The notes under the pieces: model-generated | Database searches by the model: none | Seen by the model: the letters and a program-made list of their open reading frames with translations, nothing else | What the model was told of the DNA's origin: nothing | Made by a program: the position numbers and the translations under genes | Source of the DNA: Puniceicoccaceae bacterium | GTDB lineage: Bacteria > Verrucomicrobiota > Verrucomicrobiia > Opitutales > Coraliomargaritaceae | NCBI GenBank assembly: GCA_902587165.1 | Contig: CACIKF010000009.1 | Span: forward strand, 1-51,763 | Direction of reading: 5' to 3' | Length of the DNA stretch: 51,763 bases | Part shown: positions 23,700-29,092 of the stretch, in pieces | Layout of the letters: each line of letters opens with the position of its first letter | How positions within the stretch are numbered: position 1 is the first letter of the stretch

Positions 23700-24012
23700 A
23701 ATTGATTCAGAGAGTAATGTGAAAATGATTTCATGCGAGCGATTTCGCTCTAGCACGAGCATAAGCTTATCTATATTCAACAGAAAAGTTATTCCCTACC
23801 AGAAAATTAAAAATGGCAGTAATAGAAACAATTTATTATCTCCATAATCACGCAGATAAAAAGGGCTTTAGTCGGGTCCATATTATGTCCATTAAGCCTA
23901 TCTTCCTAAAATTGAGCGAAGGGATCGAGTCGGTCGTGATGGATCTTAAGGGCATCTCCCACGCTAGCGATTGTATCCTAGGCTAAGCGGTATTTGGGGT
24001 ATTGTGACAGTG
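23700..24012. other. Gap between divergent dapA and glycosyltransferase genes; no gene called
   Basis: This 313-bp stretch should hold the promoters of both divergent genes. A possible 57-residue frame runs from ATG 23813 to the stop at 23984-23986, just before the glycosyltransferase, but its composition is not persuasive and there is no ribosome-binding site. No stable hairpin or repeat stands out. Confidence 0.5.
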
Positions 24013-25206
24013 ATGAATTGCCTAATCATCGGTAAAGTCTGGCCAGAGCCGACTTCGACAGCTGCTGGCCAGCGGACCTACGACGTGATTACGGCTTTAC
24101 AGCTAGGCTGCTGGCAGGTGCATTTCGCCTCTGCTGCTCAGCGCGGCGAGCATGCGCTCGATCTTGAAGCAATAGGCGTCACGACCCATGAAATCGCGGT
24201 CAACGATGCGGCCTTTGATCCATGGGTCGAAGCACTCGCGCCCCAGGTGGTGATTTTTGACCGTTTTATGACCGAAGAGCAGTATGGTTGGCGTGTCGCT
24301 CAGCGTTGTCCAGAGGCAGTACGTGTGCTCGATACGAGCGATCTACACTGCCTGCGTCTTGCACGAGAGCAGGTAATTAAGAGCGGAGAAGCACTCAAGC
24401 TAAAGAATGACATAGCGCTACGCGAAATCGCCGCCATCTATCGCTCTGACCTCACCTTAATGATTTCAGAGTTCGAGATGGAAATCTTAGTCGACGAATT
24501 TAGCATCAACGAAAGTTTACTCGCCTATTGGCCATTTTCCCTAGAACTCTCGGAAGAGTGCGTGCTTTATAAAAATAGGAAAGATTTCATTTTGATCGGT
24601 AGCTTTTTACATCCCCCTAACTTGGATGCAGTGCGTTGGTGTAAGGCGGAAATTTGGCCGCTCATTCGCCAGCAATTGCCTGAAGCTGAATTACACTGTT
24701 ATGGCTCTTACGGAGATAGGTTTGCAGCCGAGCTTCATGCGCCAAAGAACGGCTTTTACTTTAAGGGTCGTGCTGAAGATGCCCTAGCGACCATGACGCT
24801 TTATCGTGTTAATCTGGCACCGCTCCGCTACGGCGCAGGCTTGAAGGGTAAAGTTTTCGACGGCTTTCAAACGGGAACGCCAACGGTAATGACCCCAATC
24901 GCTGCCGAGGGTATTTCTACAAACTTTGGCTGGGCCCATACCGTAGCTGAAGACTTCGCGAATGCGGCTTTACAACTCTACCGAGAGCCTGAAGCTTGGC
25001 GCATTCGCCAGTGCGAAGAACGCGCACTTTGCCAGGACCGTTTTAATTCCGCTGACTGGCTGCCGCGCTTAGCCGCGATTATTCAATGCGTAATTGGTGA
25101 GAAAGTTCAGCTCAGAGAGCAAAATTTTATCGGCAAAATACTTCGTCACCATCAGCACCGTAGCACTGAATTTATGAGTCGCTGGATCGAACTCAAGAAT
25201 AAGTAG
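24013..25206 (+). CDS. GT4-like glycosyltransferase
   Basis: The 397-residue product starts MNCLIIGKVWPEPTSTAAGQR, typical of a GT-B group with a GxxxPP-type opening loop. It ends with FKGRAEDALATM, APLRYGAGLKGKVFDGFQTG and AEGIS, the conserved C-terminal nucleotide-sugar site of Glyco_trans_1_4-type enzymes. The acceptor cannot be read from sequence. It precedes the glucosylglycerate genes by 82 bp on the same strand and may belong with them or only be a neighbour. Open codons upstream to a TTG at 23971, and GTGs at 24004 and 24010, are alternative starts. Confidence 0.75.
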   Translation: MNCLIIGKVWPEPTSTAAGQRTYDVITALQLGCWQVHFASAAQRGEHALDLEAIGVTTHEIAVNDAAFDPWVEALAPQVVIFDRFMTEEQYGWRVAQRCPEAVRVLDTSDLHCLRLAREQVIKSGEALKLKNDIALREIAAIYRSDLTLMISEFEMEILVDEFSINESLLAYWPFSLELSEECVLYKNRKDFILIGSFLHPPNLDAVRWCKAEIWPLIRQQLPEAELHCYGSYGDRFAAELHAPKNGFYFKGRAEDALATMTLYRVNLAPLRYGAGLKGKVFDGFQTGTPTVMTPIAAEGISTNFGWAHTVAEDFANAALQLYREPEAWRIRQCEERALCQDRFNSADWLPRLAAIIQCVIGEKVQLREQNFIGKILRHHQHRSTEFMSRWIELKNK

Positions 25207-25288
25207 CACAAGTGCTAGTGTGCATTGGCATGTTCTCTGCTAAACATAATATTATGCTCCCTTGCCTCGTGAATCTCCAAGTATTCTG

Positions 25289-26098
25289 ATGGCTACTAAA
25301 AAGAAGTTTTTAGTCGTCACCGACTTAGACTCCACTCTACTCGATCACAACTACAACTGCGACGAGGCTGAACCTGCACTTGCGTGCTTGCGCGAGTTGG
25401 GGCTGCCTCTGGTTTTAAATTCCAGCAAAACCGTCGCCGAGATGGAGAATTTGGCGATGCATTTGGGACTTCACTCACCTCTTGTGGCGGAAAACGGCGG
25501 TTTGTTGGCAATTCCGAATGAAAGCACAGGTGACTACAGCGTGCAGATTAAAGGTCTTCCAAGAAAAGAGATTTTAGAGGCTGCTCACAATCTACGTTGC
25601 CAGATGGGCTATAAATTTGAAGGATTCGCTGATTGGTCAGACCAAGAACTTGCAGAGCGATCCGGGCTATCGATCACACAATCCAAGCTTTCACGCGCTC
25701 GCTTGGCCACGGAACCAATCTCATGGAACGATACTGAGCCGCAACGCTTAGAATTTGCCGACCAACTCGGCGTTCTAGGAATTCGTATGCTGCGTGGTGG
25801 ACGCTTCTGGCACCTTATGGGCGCCCCTGATAAGGCCGATGGCATTGCCTCTGCTTTGGAGTATTATCAAGAACGTGAGCCCGATACCGATTGGCTTGTT
25901 ATCGCGCTCGGTGATAGTGCCAACGATACTGCAATGCTCGAAGCAGCGGACATTGCCGTTGTCATTCCACACGCAGATGGCGCACATATTTCCCCGAAAG
26001 CACCACGTGTAGTACACGCATCGTTCCCTGCATCTAAGGGCTGGAACGCCGCAATCCTTTTACTCTTAGACGAATGCCGCGAGCACTGCTCCACTTAA
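25289..26098 (+). CDS. Mannosyl/glucosyl-3-phosphoglycerate phosphatase (HAD superfamily, MPGP type)
   Basis: The 269-residue HAD-IIB enzyme has motif I VVTDLDSTLLDH, the conserved VLNSSKTVAEME and ENGG, K in DKADGIASALEYY, and the acid motif ALGDSANDTAMLEAADIAVVI followed by PHADG. This set is characteristic of mannosyl-3-phosphoglycerate phosphatase and its glucosyl counterpart. It would remove the phosphate from glucosyl-3-phosphoglycerate made by the N-terminal domain of the next gene, only seven bp away, to give glucosylglycerate, a compatible solute. ATG 25289 is chosen over an upstream TTG at 25262. The sugar (glucose or mannose) is inferred from the partner gene. Confidence 0.88.
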   Translation: MATKKKFLVVTDLDSTLLDHNYNCDEAEPALACLRELGLPLVLNSSKTVAEMENLAMHLGLHSPLVAENGGLLAIPNESTGDYSVQIKGLPRKEILEAAHNLRCQMGYKFEGFADWSDQELAERSGLSITQSKLSRARLATEPISWNDTEPQRLEFADQLGVLGIRMLRGGRFWHLMGAPDKADGIASALEYYQEREPDTDWLVIALGDSANDTAMLEAADIAVVIPHADGAHISPKAPRVVHASFPASKGWNAAILLLLDECREHCST

Positions 26099-26104
26099 TT
26101 AACC

Positions 26105-29092
26105 ATGGGAGACTTTCACCAACAAGGACTCATTACGACTCTGCACCAGCTGAATAATCGGCCACTAGAAAAGCTGGAAGCTGATCTAATGCAGTTTAGA
26201 AAACGCCGACCGATGGCACTCGTCTTACCTTCTTTATATTCAGAACTAGAGGGTCCTGCGCTCTCGCACATTATTAGCGAGATCGCTGAAGTTCCTTATC
26301 TCGATCAAATTGTCGTAGGTCTCGATAGGGCGAATGAAGCAGAATACCGGCACGCACTTGAATTTTTCGGGCATTTGCCGCAACAACCACAAGTTCTATG
26401 GAACGATGGACCACGTCTACGCGCTATTGATACTTTACTCTCCGAGAAAGGCCTAGCTCCTAAAGAGCCTGGCAAAGGCCGTAACGTTTGGTATATGTTT
26501 GGCTACGTCATCGCCTCAGGTAAAGCGAGGGCAGTCGCACTCCATGATTGCGATATCACCACCTACAAGCGCGAGATGTTGGCGAGGCTGATCTATCCTG
26601 TGGCAAATCCTTCGCTTAGCTATAAATTTTGTAAAGGCTACTATGCACGTGTTGCCAACGGTTCGATGAATGGGCGTGTTTGTCGTTTACTCGTTACACC
26701 TCTGATACGAGCGCTGAAGAAGGTATGCGGCTCGGATGATTACCTTGATTACCTCGACAGCTTTCACTATCCGCTTGCGGGTGAGTTTGCTATGCAAAAT
26801 GACGTGATTGAAGACATTCGTATACCCTCCGACTGGGGCTTGGAAATGGGTGTGCTCTCTGAGATACAGCGTAACTATGCGAGCAACCAAATTTGCCAGG
26901 TCGACGTTGCCGACGCCTACGACCATAAGCACCAAGATCTTTCGCTCGAAGATCGTAGTTGCGGCCTCTCTAAGATGAGTTGCGATATAACTAAATCGCT
27001 TTACCGGAAGATGGCTACTCAGGGACAGGTTTTTTCTCACGAATCGGTACGCACGATTAAAGCTGCCTACTACCGTATCGCACTTGATCTAATTGAGAGT
27101 TATAACAGCGACGCCGCTATTAATGGGCTAAAATACGATCGCCATACAGAGGGCTCTGCCGTAGAAGTCTTTGCCGAAAACATTCTCGCTGCGGGCGAAG
27201 AATTCCTCGATCCGAGTAATTCGATGGACGTTCCCTTTATGCCTAGTTGGAAGCGTGTCATTTCTGCAGTGCCGGACATTTTGCACCGTCTTCGCGTAGC
27301 AGTCGAGGAAGACCGTCTGGAATTCGGCTCAGAGATTGTTTTGAATCCGTCTCTGCATACGAAGGCCAAAGGCTTTCGCCAGCGTGTAGCCTTCCATGTT
27401 AAGGAGATTTATGGCGATGAAGATGTGGATGAAATCACCGACGAATTGATGGAAGCGGCTAACATTTCTGAGCACGCATCGCCCCTCGCGCTTGGTATGA
27501 GCAAGTGGGATCAGTCCGATGTGATGATGATTACTTATGGCGACTCAATTAAAAAGGAAGGCCGTCCACCGCTACGCGAGCTGAATAACTTTATGGTCAG
27601 CCAGCTTAAAAATACCATGAGCGGCGTGCATATTCTTCCTTTCAACCCTTATAGTTCAGACGACGGGTTCTCTGTCATTGACTACACCGCAGTCAATCCA
27701 GAACTCGGATCTTGGGATGATATCACTGCGCTTGCTAACGAGTTTTCAGTCATGGCTGACCTCGTAATTAATCACTGCTCGCGAGAATCCCTATGGTTTA
27801 AAAACTACGAGAAGAATAAAGCGCCAGGTCGCGGTTATTTTATTAACGGTTTAGAATTCGAAGACCTCTCCCAAGTCGTTCGCCCGCGCAGTACGCCTTT
27901 ACTAACCGAGATACATGCTGTCGATGGGGTTAAACAAGTTTGGTGCACTTTCGGTGAAGATCAGGTCGATCTAAATTACCGTAATCCAGATGTGTTGCTA
28001 GAGATCGTTCGCATTATCCGCCATTATGTCGAGCAGGGTATCCATTTCTTTCGCTTAGATGCTATTGCTTTCCTCTGGAAAGAATCTGGTACTAGTTGCG
28101 TGCACCTACCTCAGACGCACGAACTGATTAAGTTACTGCGTCTAGTCATTGAAAATCTCGACCCGAGTGCGGTCATCATTACTGAGACGAATGTACCGAA
28201 CCGTGAGAATCTTAGTTACTTTGGCAACGATAACGAAGCGCATCTGATTTATAATTTTTCACTGCCACCTTTGTTACTTTACTCTATTCTTAGCGGCGAC
28301 TGTAAGCACCTAAAAACATGGATGACCTCCATGCCTCCTGCTCGTAGTGGGCGCGCCTATCTGAACTTTATTGCGTCACACGATGGCATCGGCCTAAGGC
28401 CTGCTGAGGGTCTGCTCTCTCCAAGAGAACTCGATGGTTTGATCGAAAACATTCGTGAGTCGGGTGGCGAAATCTCGATGCGCCGAACACCGCAAGGCGA
28501 TTTGACCCCCTACGAGGCCAATATTTCTCTTTACAGTGCAATGGAGCGTCCTATCGATGGCGAGGTTGATGATTTTCAAATGGCGCGTTTCATCTGCGCA
28601 CACACCATCATGCTAGCCCTCGAAGGCCTACCTGCGATTTATATCCATAGTCTACTCGGCACGGAGAACAATCGCGAGGGTATGGTACATTCTGGTCGCG
28701 CCCGCACGATTAATCGATACCACTGGGAGGCTGACGATCTTTATGCAGCTCTAGACGATGATGGACGCCACCACAAGGCGGTCTTCGCTGAAATGAAACG
28801 CCTCATTCAAATCCGTATAGCACAAGACGCCTTCCATCCCAACGCCACACAGTATACGCTACACTTTTCTGATCAAATCTTCGCTTTTTGGCGAGAGAGT
28901 CTTGACCGTAAACAATCACTCTTTGCTCTGCATAATGTCTCTTCTGAAAGGCAAACGATTCCGCTCGTTGAACTCAACCTTATAGCCACTGAGGCATGGG
29001 TCGATCTGATCAGCGGCTTTGCCTACGAGGACCTGGCCGGACAGATTGTGCTCGAGCCTTACGACTGCGTCTGGATTACAAATAAAGGGTGA
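26105..29092 (+). CDS. Fused glucosyl-3-phosphoglycerate synthase and GH13_18 sugar phosphorylase (probable glucosylglycerate phosphorylase)
   Basis: This 995-residue protein has two enzymes. Residues 1 to about 415 are a GT81-type retaining transferase (MALVLPSLYSELEGPALSHI, GPRLRAID, GKGRNVWYMFGYV, the DxD motif as HDCDI with D148 and D150, SFHYPLAGEFAMQNDV), matching glucosyl-3-phosphoglycerate synthase. From about 418 to the end it is a GH13 subfamily 18 phosphorylase. It has VMMITYGDSI, LPFNPYSSDDGFSVIDY, VMADLVINHCS, FFRLDAIAF (nucleophile D652), VIITETNV (acid/base E694) and FIASHDGIG (D760). GH13_18 contains sucrose, glucosylglycerol and glucosylglycerate phosphorylases. Given the partner domain and the upstream phosphatase, glucosylglycerate is the likely substrate, giving glucose-1-phosphate and glycerate. 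No stop codon or frameshift separates the halves. It is cytoplasmic, with no signal peptide. I know the separate enzymes but not a characterised fusion. Confidence 0.9.
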   Translation: MGDFHQQGLITTLHQLNNRPLEKLEADLMQFRKRRPMALVLPSLYSELEGPALSHIISEIAEVPYLDQIVVGLDRANEAEYRHALEFFGHLPQQPQVLWNDGPRLRAIDTLLSEKGLAPKEPGKGRNVWYMFGYVIASGKARAVALHDCDITTYKREMLARLIYPVANPSLSYKFCKGYYARVANGSMNGRVCRLLVTPLIRALKKVCGSDDYLDYLDSFHYPLAGEFAMQNDVIEDIRIPSDWGLEMGVLSEIQRNYASNQICQVDVADAYDHKHQDLSLEDRSCGLSKMSCDITKSLYRKMATQGQVFSHESVRTIKAAYYRIALDLIESYNSDAAINGLKYDRHTEGSAVEVFAENILAAGEEFLDPSNSMDVPFMPSWKRVISAVPDILHRLRVAVEEDRLEFGSEIVLNPSLHTKAKGFRQRVAFHVKEIYGDEDVDEITDELMEAANISEHASPLALGMSKWDQSDVMMITYGDSIKKEGRPPLRELNNFMVSQLKNTMSGVHILPFNPYSSDDGFSVIDYTAVNPELGSWDDITALANEFSVMADLVINHCSRESLWFKNYEKNKAPGRGYFINGLEFEDLSQVVRPRSTPLLTEIHAVDGVKQVWCTFGEDQVDLNYRNPDVLLEIVRIIRHYVEQGIHFFRLDAIAFLWKESGTSCVHLPQTHELIKLLRLVIENLDPSAVIITETNVPNRENLSYFGNDNEAHLIYNFSLPPLLLYSILSGDCKHLKTWMTSMPPARSGRAYLNFIASHDGIGLRPAEGLLSPRELDGLIENIRESGGEISMRRTPQGDLTPYEANISLYSAMERPIDGEVDDFQMARFICAHTIMLALEGLPAIYIHSLLGTENNREGMVHSGRARTINRYHWEADDLYAALDDDGRHHKAVFAEMKRLIQIRIAQDAFHPNATQYTLHFSDQIFAFWRESLDRKQSLFALHNVSSERQTIPLVELNLIATEAWVDLISGFAYEDLAGQIVLEPYDCVWITNKG

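Follow-up and report, generated by a model that had tools for sequence, protein, structure and literature searches.

Known glucosylglycerate systems and the fused gene

Glucosylglycerate (GGA) is a nitrogen-free solute found in marine microbes; cyanobacteria living in waters poor in nitrogen are reported to use it as a compatible solute (Klahn 2010, cited in PMC11631117 and PMC12636525). Glucosylglycerate phosphorylase (GGaP; EC 2.4.1.352, Franceus et al. 2017 as cited in PMC7178133) is known from gene clusters that also hold glucosyl-3-phosphoglycerate synthase (GpgS) and its phosphatase (GpgP) (PMC7178133; Prochlorococcus operon, PMC11631117). Here we describe a gene from a Puniceicoccaceae bacterium (Verrucomicrobiota; assembly GCA_902587165.1) that encodes a GpgS-like GT81 glycosyltransferase and a GGaP-type GH13_18 phosphorylase in one polypeptide. 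The gene lies in a stretch of 51,763 nucleotides, positions 1 to 51,763 of the forward strand of contig CACIKF010000009.1, which is referred to as the window. The described clusters share with this locus the same three activities, the neighbourhood and the GGaP motifs, and a glycerate kinase is reported near them; as far as described, however, their members are separate genes, whereas synthase and phosphorylase form one chain here.

The individual enzymes, their gene clusters and the operon of Prochlorococcus are therefore not new, and neither are fusions of other kinds in this metabolism (PMC7178133, PMC11631117, PMC10873239). In Marinobacter, ggpPS, a fused glucosylglycerol-phosphate phosphatase/synthase, is described as adjoining a glucosylglycerol phosphorylase. 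There, too, a fusion that makes an osmolyte has as its neighbour a GH13_18 phosphorylase for that osmolyte, but the solute differs from GGA and the phosphorylase lies outside the fusion (PMC10873239). The bifunctional mannosyl-3-phosphoglycerate synthase/phosphatase (NF011072) is likewise a two-enzyme fusion, in a sister solute pathway; it joins two consecutive biosynthetic steps, whereas the window protein joins synthesis and breakdown and leaves out the middle step. Activities that make and break a compound also share one chain in 6-phosphofructo-2-kinase/fructose-2,6-bisphosphatase and in glutathionylspermidine synthetase/amidase, which have unrelated folds and known regulation. No description of a GpgS-GGaP fusion was found in the literature searched, the GGaP discovery paper (PMC5601347) and most subscription papers being outside its coverage; an initial annotation of this DNA likewise knew of no characterised fusion.

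The fused gene (26105-29092, plus strand) is a single ATG-started open reading frame (ORF) of 995 codons without interruption, encoding 995 residues. Both domains are present at full length, in agreement with the unbroken chain proposed initially. The GT81 half spans residues 1-406 (26105-27322) and is followed by a linker predicted to be disordered at residues 412-422 (27338-27370; predicted local distance difference test score, pLDDT, below 50). A helical segment at residues 424-452 (27374-27460) corresponds, by junction comparison and in the structure model, to the N-terminal extension of stand-alone GGaPs, and the GH13_18 half occupies residues 471-995 (27515-29089).

Conservation of the fusion

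The search covered 56 related genomes, the source genome included, 36 of which belong to the window's own family. The full-length fused frame without an internal stop was found in 27 of these 36, again counting the source genome, at 57-100% identity. Two family genomes with the genes unfused (G019 and G020) carry a different stand-alone GGaP (40-42% identity) together with a weakly matching shorter GpgS, two others (G014 and G018) show weak GH13 matches alone, and four (G010, G024, G034 and G035) gave no match. The last, G017, holds a remnant (L189:486-1169): the first 31 residues of the phosphatase are joined in frame to the final 196 of the fused enzyme, with a 580-residue ORF downstream. 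This remnant could look as it does because a single deletion took most of the cassette, an assembly error being the alternative.

Beyond the family, a long-type GpgS was detected at E <1e-50 in 27 of 387 genomes of the phylum, and in 14 of these 27 it lies in a frame of at least 990 residues; six genomes outside the family (G271, G255, G239, G291, G205 and G281) were confirmed to hold GT81 and GH13 domains in one ORF. A scan of named genomes confirmed 591 loci, of which the best 80 by tblastn score were examined. Ten of the best 80 are fused, from Puniceicoccaceae, Opitutaceae, other Verrucomicrobiota metagenome-assembled genomes (MAGs), a Luteolibacter MAG, an Akkermansiaceae MAG cut by the contig end and the planctomycete Mariniblastus; five of the ten (L083, L084, L085, L086 and L093) come from genomes already in the family set and are not additional. 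An uninterrupted full-length match was found in two of 294 Planctomycetota genomes, one being Mariniblastus. Across 369 genomes of the Salinimonas class (Gammaproteobacteria), many of which hold both enzymes, there was none among the matches listed, which did not extend to the weakest. The architecture, whose mapping across Verrucomicrobiota the initial annotation had called for, is not an isolated case but a conserved feature of many Verrucomicrobiota and some Planctomycetota.

A residue check covered 22 positions in 35 distinct fused proteins, including that of the window (L067, L090 and the truncated L125 fell outside the filter). Only positions 524, 560 and 561 varied, and the GH13 catalytic triad, the TETN signature and the loop A glutamate discussed below were invariant in all 35. 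Against five near relatives, the ratio of nonsynonymous to synonymous substitution rates (dN/dS) was 0.033-0.049 in the GT81 half and 0.029-0.040 in the GH13 half, with higher values in the linker (0.05-0.33). Purifying selection acts on both halves.

The GT81 half resembles glucosyl-3-phosphoglycerate synthase

Residues 3-406 gave a full-length match to the GpgS model NF040724 (NCBIfam; E 1.8e-109). The AlphaFold model of this half has a mean pLDDT of 89.7, and the top 41 Protein Data Bank matches returned for it by Foldseek are entries for GpgS or mannosyl-3-phosphoglycerate synthase (MpgS), a few of them titled just as a mycobacterial protein. The best structural match was 5jqx (E 1.7e-12, TM score by target 0.72), while the solved GT81 enzymes matched weakly by sequence (best E 0.0017). 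Fold and DxD motif are common to the window's half, the solved mycobacterial GpgS (e.g., 5jqx) and Rubrobacter MpgS (3f1y); in contrast, identity in the structural alignment is about 20%, and the window's half is of a longer type (about 405 residues). The DxD motif D148-C-D150 (26546-26554), located exactly by the initial annotation, is invariant in the 35 distinct fused proteins, as are Lys124, Arg126, Glu227, Glu247, His274 and His276. As donor sugar of the GT81 half, the attached GGaP argues for glucose over mannose.

The GH13_18 half carries the marks of glucosylglycerate phosphorylase

Residues 472-947 matched the GH13_18 sucrose phosphorylase model TIGR03852 (NCBIfam; E 1.7e-59) with 201.7 bits, below its cut-off of 334.4. 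The three catalytic acids align with the triad of solved GH13_18 enzymes, at precisely the positions first proposed: the nucleophile D652 in FRLDA (28058-28060), the acid/base E694 within TETN (residues 693-696; 28181-28192) and the transition-state stabiliser D760 in ASHDG (28382-28384). A review describes (T/S)ETN at strand 5 and a glutamate in loop A as the features that set GGaP apart from sucrose phosphorylase (PMC7178133). Both are present here, the loop A residue being glutamate and not glutamine (E804 in PYEAN, 28514-28516). The pair recurs in all 30 fused GH13 rows examined (28 distinct) and in 76 of 78 split rows, including Escherichia coli YcjM, which is annotated as GGaP. On the basis of these residues, the GH13 half appears to be of the GGaP type, and a sucrose phosphorylase specificity was judged unlikely given the motifs together with the score below the TIGR03852 cut-off.

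Two split rows depart from the pattern. In L118, the loop A position could not be read (X). In L115, the split GGaP of the Pseudomonadales MAG HH_bin3, CENN replaces TETN while the loop A glutamate is retained; this is a true variant, possibly reflecting a variant specificity.

Genes next to the fusion

Upstream of the fused gene lies a HAD-IIB phosphatase of the mannosyl-3-phosphoglycerate phosphatase (MPGP) family, resembling GpgP (25289-26098, plus strand; the ATG at 25289 is a likelier start than the alternative TTG at 25262). It passes the subfamily cut-off of TIGR01486 (194.4 bits against 164.75; NCBIfam) and falls below the cut-offs of the MPGP equivalog models listed. The matching phosphatase described initially is indeed there, although the gap between the two genes is 6 bp (26099-26104) and not seven as first counted. 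Further 5', a group 1 glycosyltransferase (23971-25206) resembles the PEP-CTERM/XrtA glycosyltransferase stp1 (TIGR03087) with a score under the model's cut-off, and no link between this gene and the fusion was seen. A connection to a defence system was considered and rejected, the sole PADLOC match being a GlgB-type alpha-amylase hit that we read as generic GH13 similarity.

Split operons and the origin of the fusion

In 70 of the best 80 loci, GpgS and GGaP are separate neighbouring genes. The hosts are marine Proteobacteria, Pelagibacteraceae, Bacteroidota, a Neomarinimicrobiota MAG and three Verrucomicrobiales MAGs (L114, L122 and L132), and in Proteobacteria the order is often that of a kinase-phosphatase-GpgS-GGaP operon. 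Within the stretch examined, the phosphatase was present in 77 of the 80 loci, including all ten fused ones. The stand-alone GpgS (about 407 residues) and GGaP (about 585 residues) sum to the length of the fused protein, and in the junction comparison the linker reads like the tail of GpgS continued by the N-terminal extension of GGaP. In 35 of the 70 split loci, a lone in-frame stop separates the two genes, in keeping with origin by stop loss, although this count is biased as described below.

The GH13 tree was rooted on YcjM and comprised 76 rows. The 25 fused ones form one side of a branch with support 100/98 and adjoin 41 mostly proteobacterial rows. Derivation of the GH13 half from the stand-alone GGaP native to the family (G019 and G020) was rejected, those sequences, like the native GGaPs of the window's order, lying outside the 66-row clade of fused and mostly proteobacterial rows (support 100/100). 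The GT81 tree comprised 75 rows, 26 of them fused, and its bootstrap had not settled completely; here the fused/split label needs three changes. A single fused clade is not rejected there (approximately unbiased test, p 0.21), and a single origin is not established by the GT81 half. Both trees took in 14 of the 27 family fused loci, 32 rows having been dropped for thinning.

Since GpgS and GGaP are separate neighbours in proteobacterial operons, loss of the stop codon between them is the simplest origin of the fusion. Judged from these alignments and trees, the fusion probably arose once in this way, in an operon related to that of marine Proteobacteria; one stop-loss event in a horizontally moved operon would be the simplest reading. 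The fusion then probably persisted in Verrucomicrobiota and in some Planctomycetota.

The order also shows another arrangement of this metabolism. In three unfused relatives (L075:9946-12983, L074:6842-10005 and L073:5838-8972), the stand-alone GGaP gene comes after one for a group 1 glycosyltransferase, and a shorter GpgS of a different kind lies about 2.5-7 kb away or less. In G397, the long-type GpgS adjoins a PF12710 HAD phosphatase (L064:6308-8280), possibly an alternative pathway phosphatase, and neither an MPGP-type phosphatase nor a GGaP was matched in the 14 kb examined. Two genes located 5' in L072 had no Pfam match.

Glycerate kinases and a second fusion

The initial annotation had described synthase, phosphatase and phosphorylase as a complete GGA cycle. 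The assignment to the GGA pathway stands, as both halves and the adjacent phosphatase point there, but the cycle as given is incomplete: phosphorolysis releases glycerate and a glycerate kinase, which had been omitted, returns it to glycolysis, so the cycle closes only with that enzyme. A plant-type D-glycerate 3-kinase (GLYK) had no match in the window operon or in the source genome. This type was found in eight of the 27 fused family genomes (G008, G015, G016, G022, G023, G026, G030 and G032) and a PF02595 glycerate kinase in 16. The two never occur together, an apparent non-orthologous replacement, and as the split follows genus groups it may amount to about one event and not eight. Neither type was detected in the remaining three, namely the source genome (79% complete), G027 (89%) and G025 (99%), and glycerate kinases of type PF13660 were found in none of the 56 genomes. 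Because relatives that lack the fusion can have a PF02595 kinase as well, finding one is not informative by itself.

Among the best 80 loci, the plant-type kinase was present in 43 within the stretch examined, and it lies 5' of GpgS in 42 of these 43 (not in L118). It matches solved D-glycerate 3-kinases (6ckg and 7xpc), with best E values of 1.9e-12 and 3e-15 for two queries. Five Verrucomicrobiota genomes (G271, G255, G239, G291 and G205) have the kinase joined to the phosphatase N-terminus beside the synthase-phosphorylase fusion, and two chains thereby carry four predicted activities (L067:481-2196, L068:8455-10239, L069:9015-10799, L070:1712-3442 and L071:4822-6537). Compared with the kinase part of L067, those of the other four share 44-75% identity across about 293-300 residues. 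The kinase-phosphatase fusion also occurs with GpgS and GGaP as separate genes, in Methylophaga (L097:4230-6008) and Pseudoalteromonas (L108:4266-6008). No description of it was found in the literature searched, which left out most subscription papers. It is conceivable, though doubtful, that some Verrucomicrobiota run the four-step cycle in two side-by-side bifunctional chains, perhaps as a turnover complex holding a recycled, tunable osmolyte or carbon pool, of which the window protein would be half.

Proposed function and alternative explanations

We propose that the fused protein is a bifunctional enzyme of the GGA cycle with a single stop-loss origin, whose halves probably work independently on a tether, and we put the probability of this reading at about 0.78. 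The N-terminal half would transfer glucose from nucleoside diphosphate (NDP)-glucose onto 3-phosphoglycerate, the separate upstream phosphatase would dephosphorylate the resulting glucosyl-3-phosphoglycerate to GGA, and the C-terminal half would phosphorolyse GGA to glucose-1-phosphate and glycerate, which a glycerate kinase encoded elsewhere would feed back into glycolysis. The two active sites would be held at a fixed 1:1 amount, with the direction of flux set by substrate supply, that is, NDP-glucose and 3-phosphoglycerate versus phosphate and GGA. While the fusion, its conservation, the family assignments, the motifs, the gene context and the single clade of the GH13 half were computed directly, we infer both activities, the identity of the substrates, the stop-loss route and the independent action of the halves from them. 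The structure model of the whole protein shows two well-ordered domains with a predicted template modelling score (pTM) of 0.63. As the phosphatase sits on a separate chain and the linker is modelled at low pLDDT, two independent active sites are expected, with no built-in switch.

Several observations weigh against this proposal. The GT81 half scores 366.3 bits, below the NF040724 cut-off of 700, and is consequently termed a GpgS-like GT81 rather than assigned to that equivalog; the assignment of donor and acceptor accordingly rests on family, fold and context. The 35 of 70 split loci in which both genes lie in the same frame with exactly one stop between them are a biased count, because the tblastn ranking of the 80 loci favours same-frame pairs. 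In the GT81 tree, the starred branches force at least two changes between fused and split states, and the split long-branch rows L061 and L064 sit among fused rows. None of the three glycerate kinase families searched was found in the incomplete source genome, the nearly complete G025 has the fusion and likewise lacks all three, and the plant-type kinase adjoins just one of the ten fused loci (L090).

The most serious alternative is compatible with our proposal and differs in denying any benefit: a stop codon was lost between two co-expressed neighbours, the change became fixed in one lineage, and the halves behave like separate enzymes. This neutral history, to which we give somewhat less than an even chance, is favoured by the same parts and lengths in fused and split proteins, by a linker predicted to be disordered and the pTM of 0.63 despite ordered domains, and by the sufficiency of one origin for the GH13 half. 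It has to contend with a joining that was kept across a family and two phyla, bar possible re-splitting in L061 and L064, and with the absence of an uninterrupted full-length match among those listed for the gammaproteobacterial class despite many genomes with both genes. The initial annotation held that opposed fluxes in one chain imply switching between them. Conservation of both active sites together in all 35 distinct fused proteins would fit a switch regulated by phosphate, salt or nitrogen, or channelling of the intermediate along the joined chain. That implication does not follow, however, because many proteobacterial operons encode these activities side by side without any fusion, and the phosphatase that connects the two reactions is on another chain. 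The GpgS product is no substrate for GGaP before the phosphatase has acted, so direct channelling is not expected; the linker is predicted to be disordered, no domain was detected beyond the two halves, and the chain is as long as the stand-alone enzymes combined. We consider a switch or channelling unlikely.

Use of the GH13 half mainly in reverse, to make GGA from glucose-1-phosphate and glycerate, would give two synthetic routes and no cycle. GH13_18 phosphorolysis is described as effectively reversible (PMC6720575) and GGaP as reversible (PMC11009771), and nine of ten fused loci have no adjoining kinase. Kinase genes nevertheless travel with related operons, which fits disposal of glycerate and not its supply, and we regard a reverse role as rather improbable. 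Activity on another glucoside, namely sucrose, sucrose-6-phosphate or glucosylglycerol, is suggested by the best curated model and several solved relatives, which are named sucrose phosphorylase. It appears quite improbable given a score far under the cut-off of that model, the presence of both GGaP marks, the absence of the loop motifs described for sucrose, sucrose-6-phosphate and glucosylglycerol phosphorylases (PMC7178133), and the location of the GH13 half beside or fused to GpgS in all of the best 80 loci. A catalytically dead half acting as a sensor or scaffold is very improbable; no point was found in favour, catalytic residues are invariant, and dN/dS is about equal in the two halves. 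An assembly or sequencing artefact, the refutation named in the initial annotation, might be suspected from the state of the source genome (79% complete, in 28 contigs), but it is ruled out because the frame recurs in 27 of 36 family genomes, in other families and classes and in a second phylum.

Significance

The metabolic function of GGaP is described as not yet experimentally confirmed (PMC7178133). A conserved chain that couples synthesis and breakdown 1:1 is genomic evidence that GGaP turns over GGA made by the same cell, and the fused chain offers a single protein with which the role of GGaP in GGA turnover may be tested. Finally, the double fusions of kinase with phosphatase and of synthase with phosphorylase represent a compact natural cassette for the cycling of a glycoside osmolyte.

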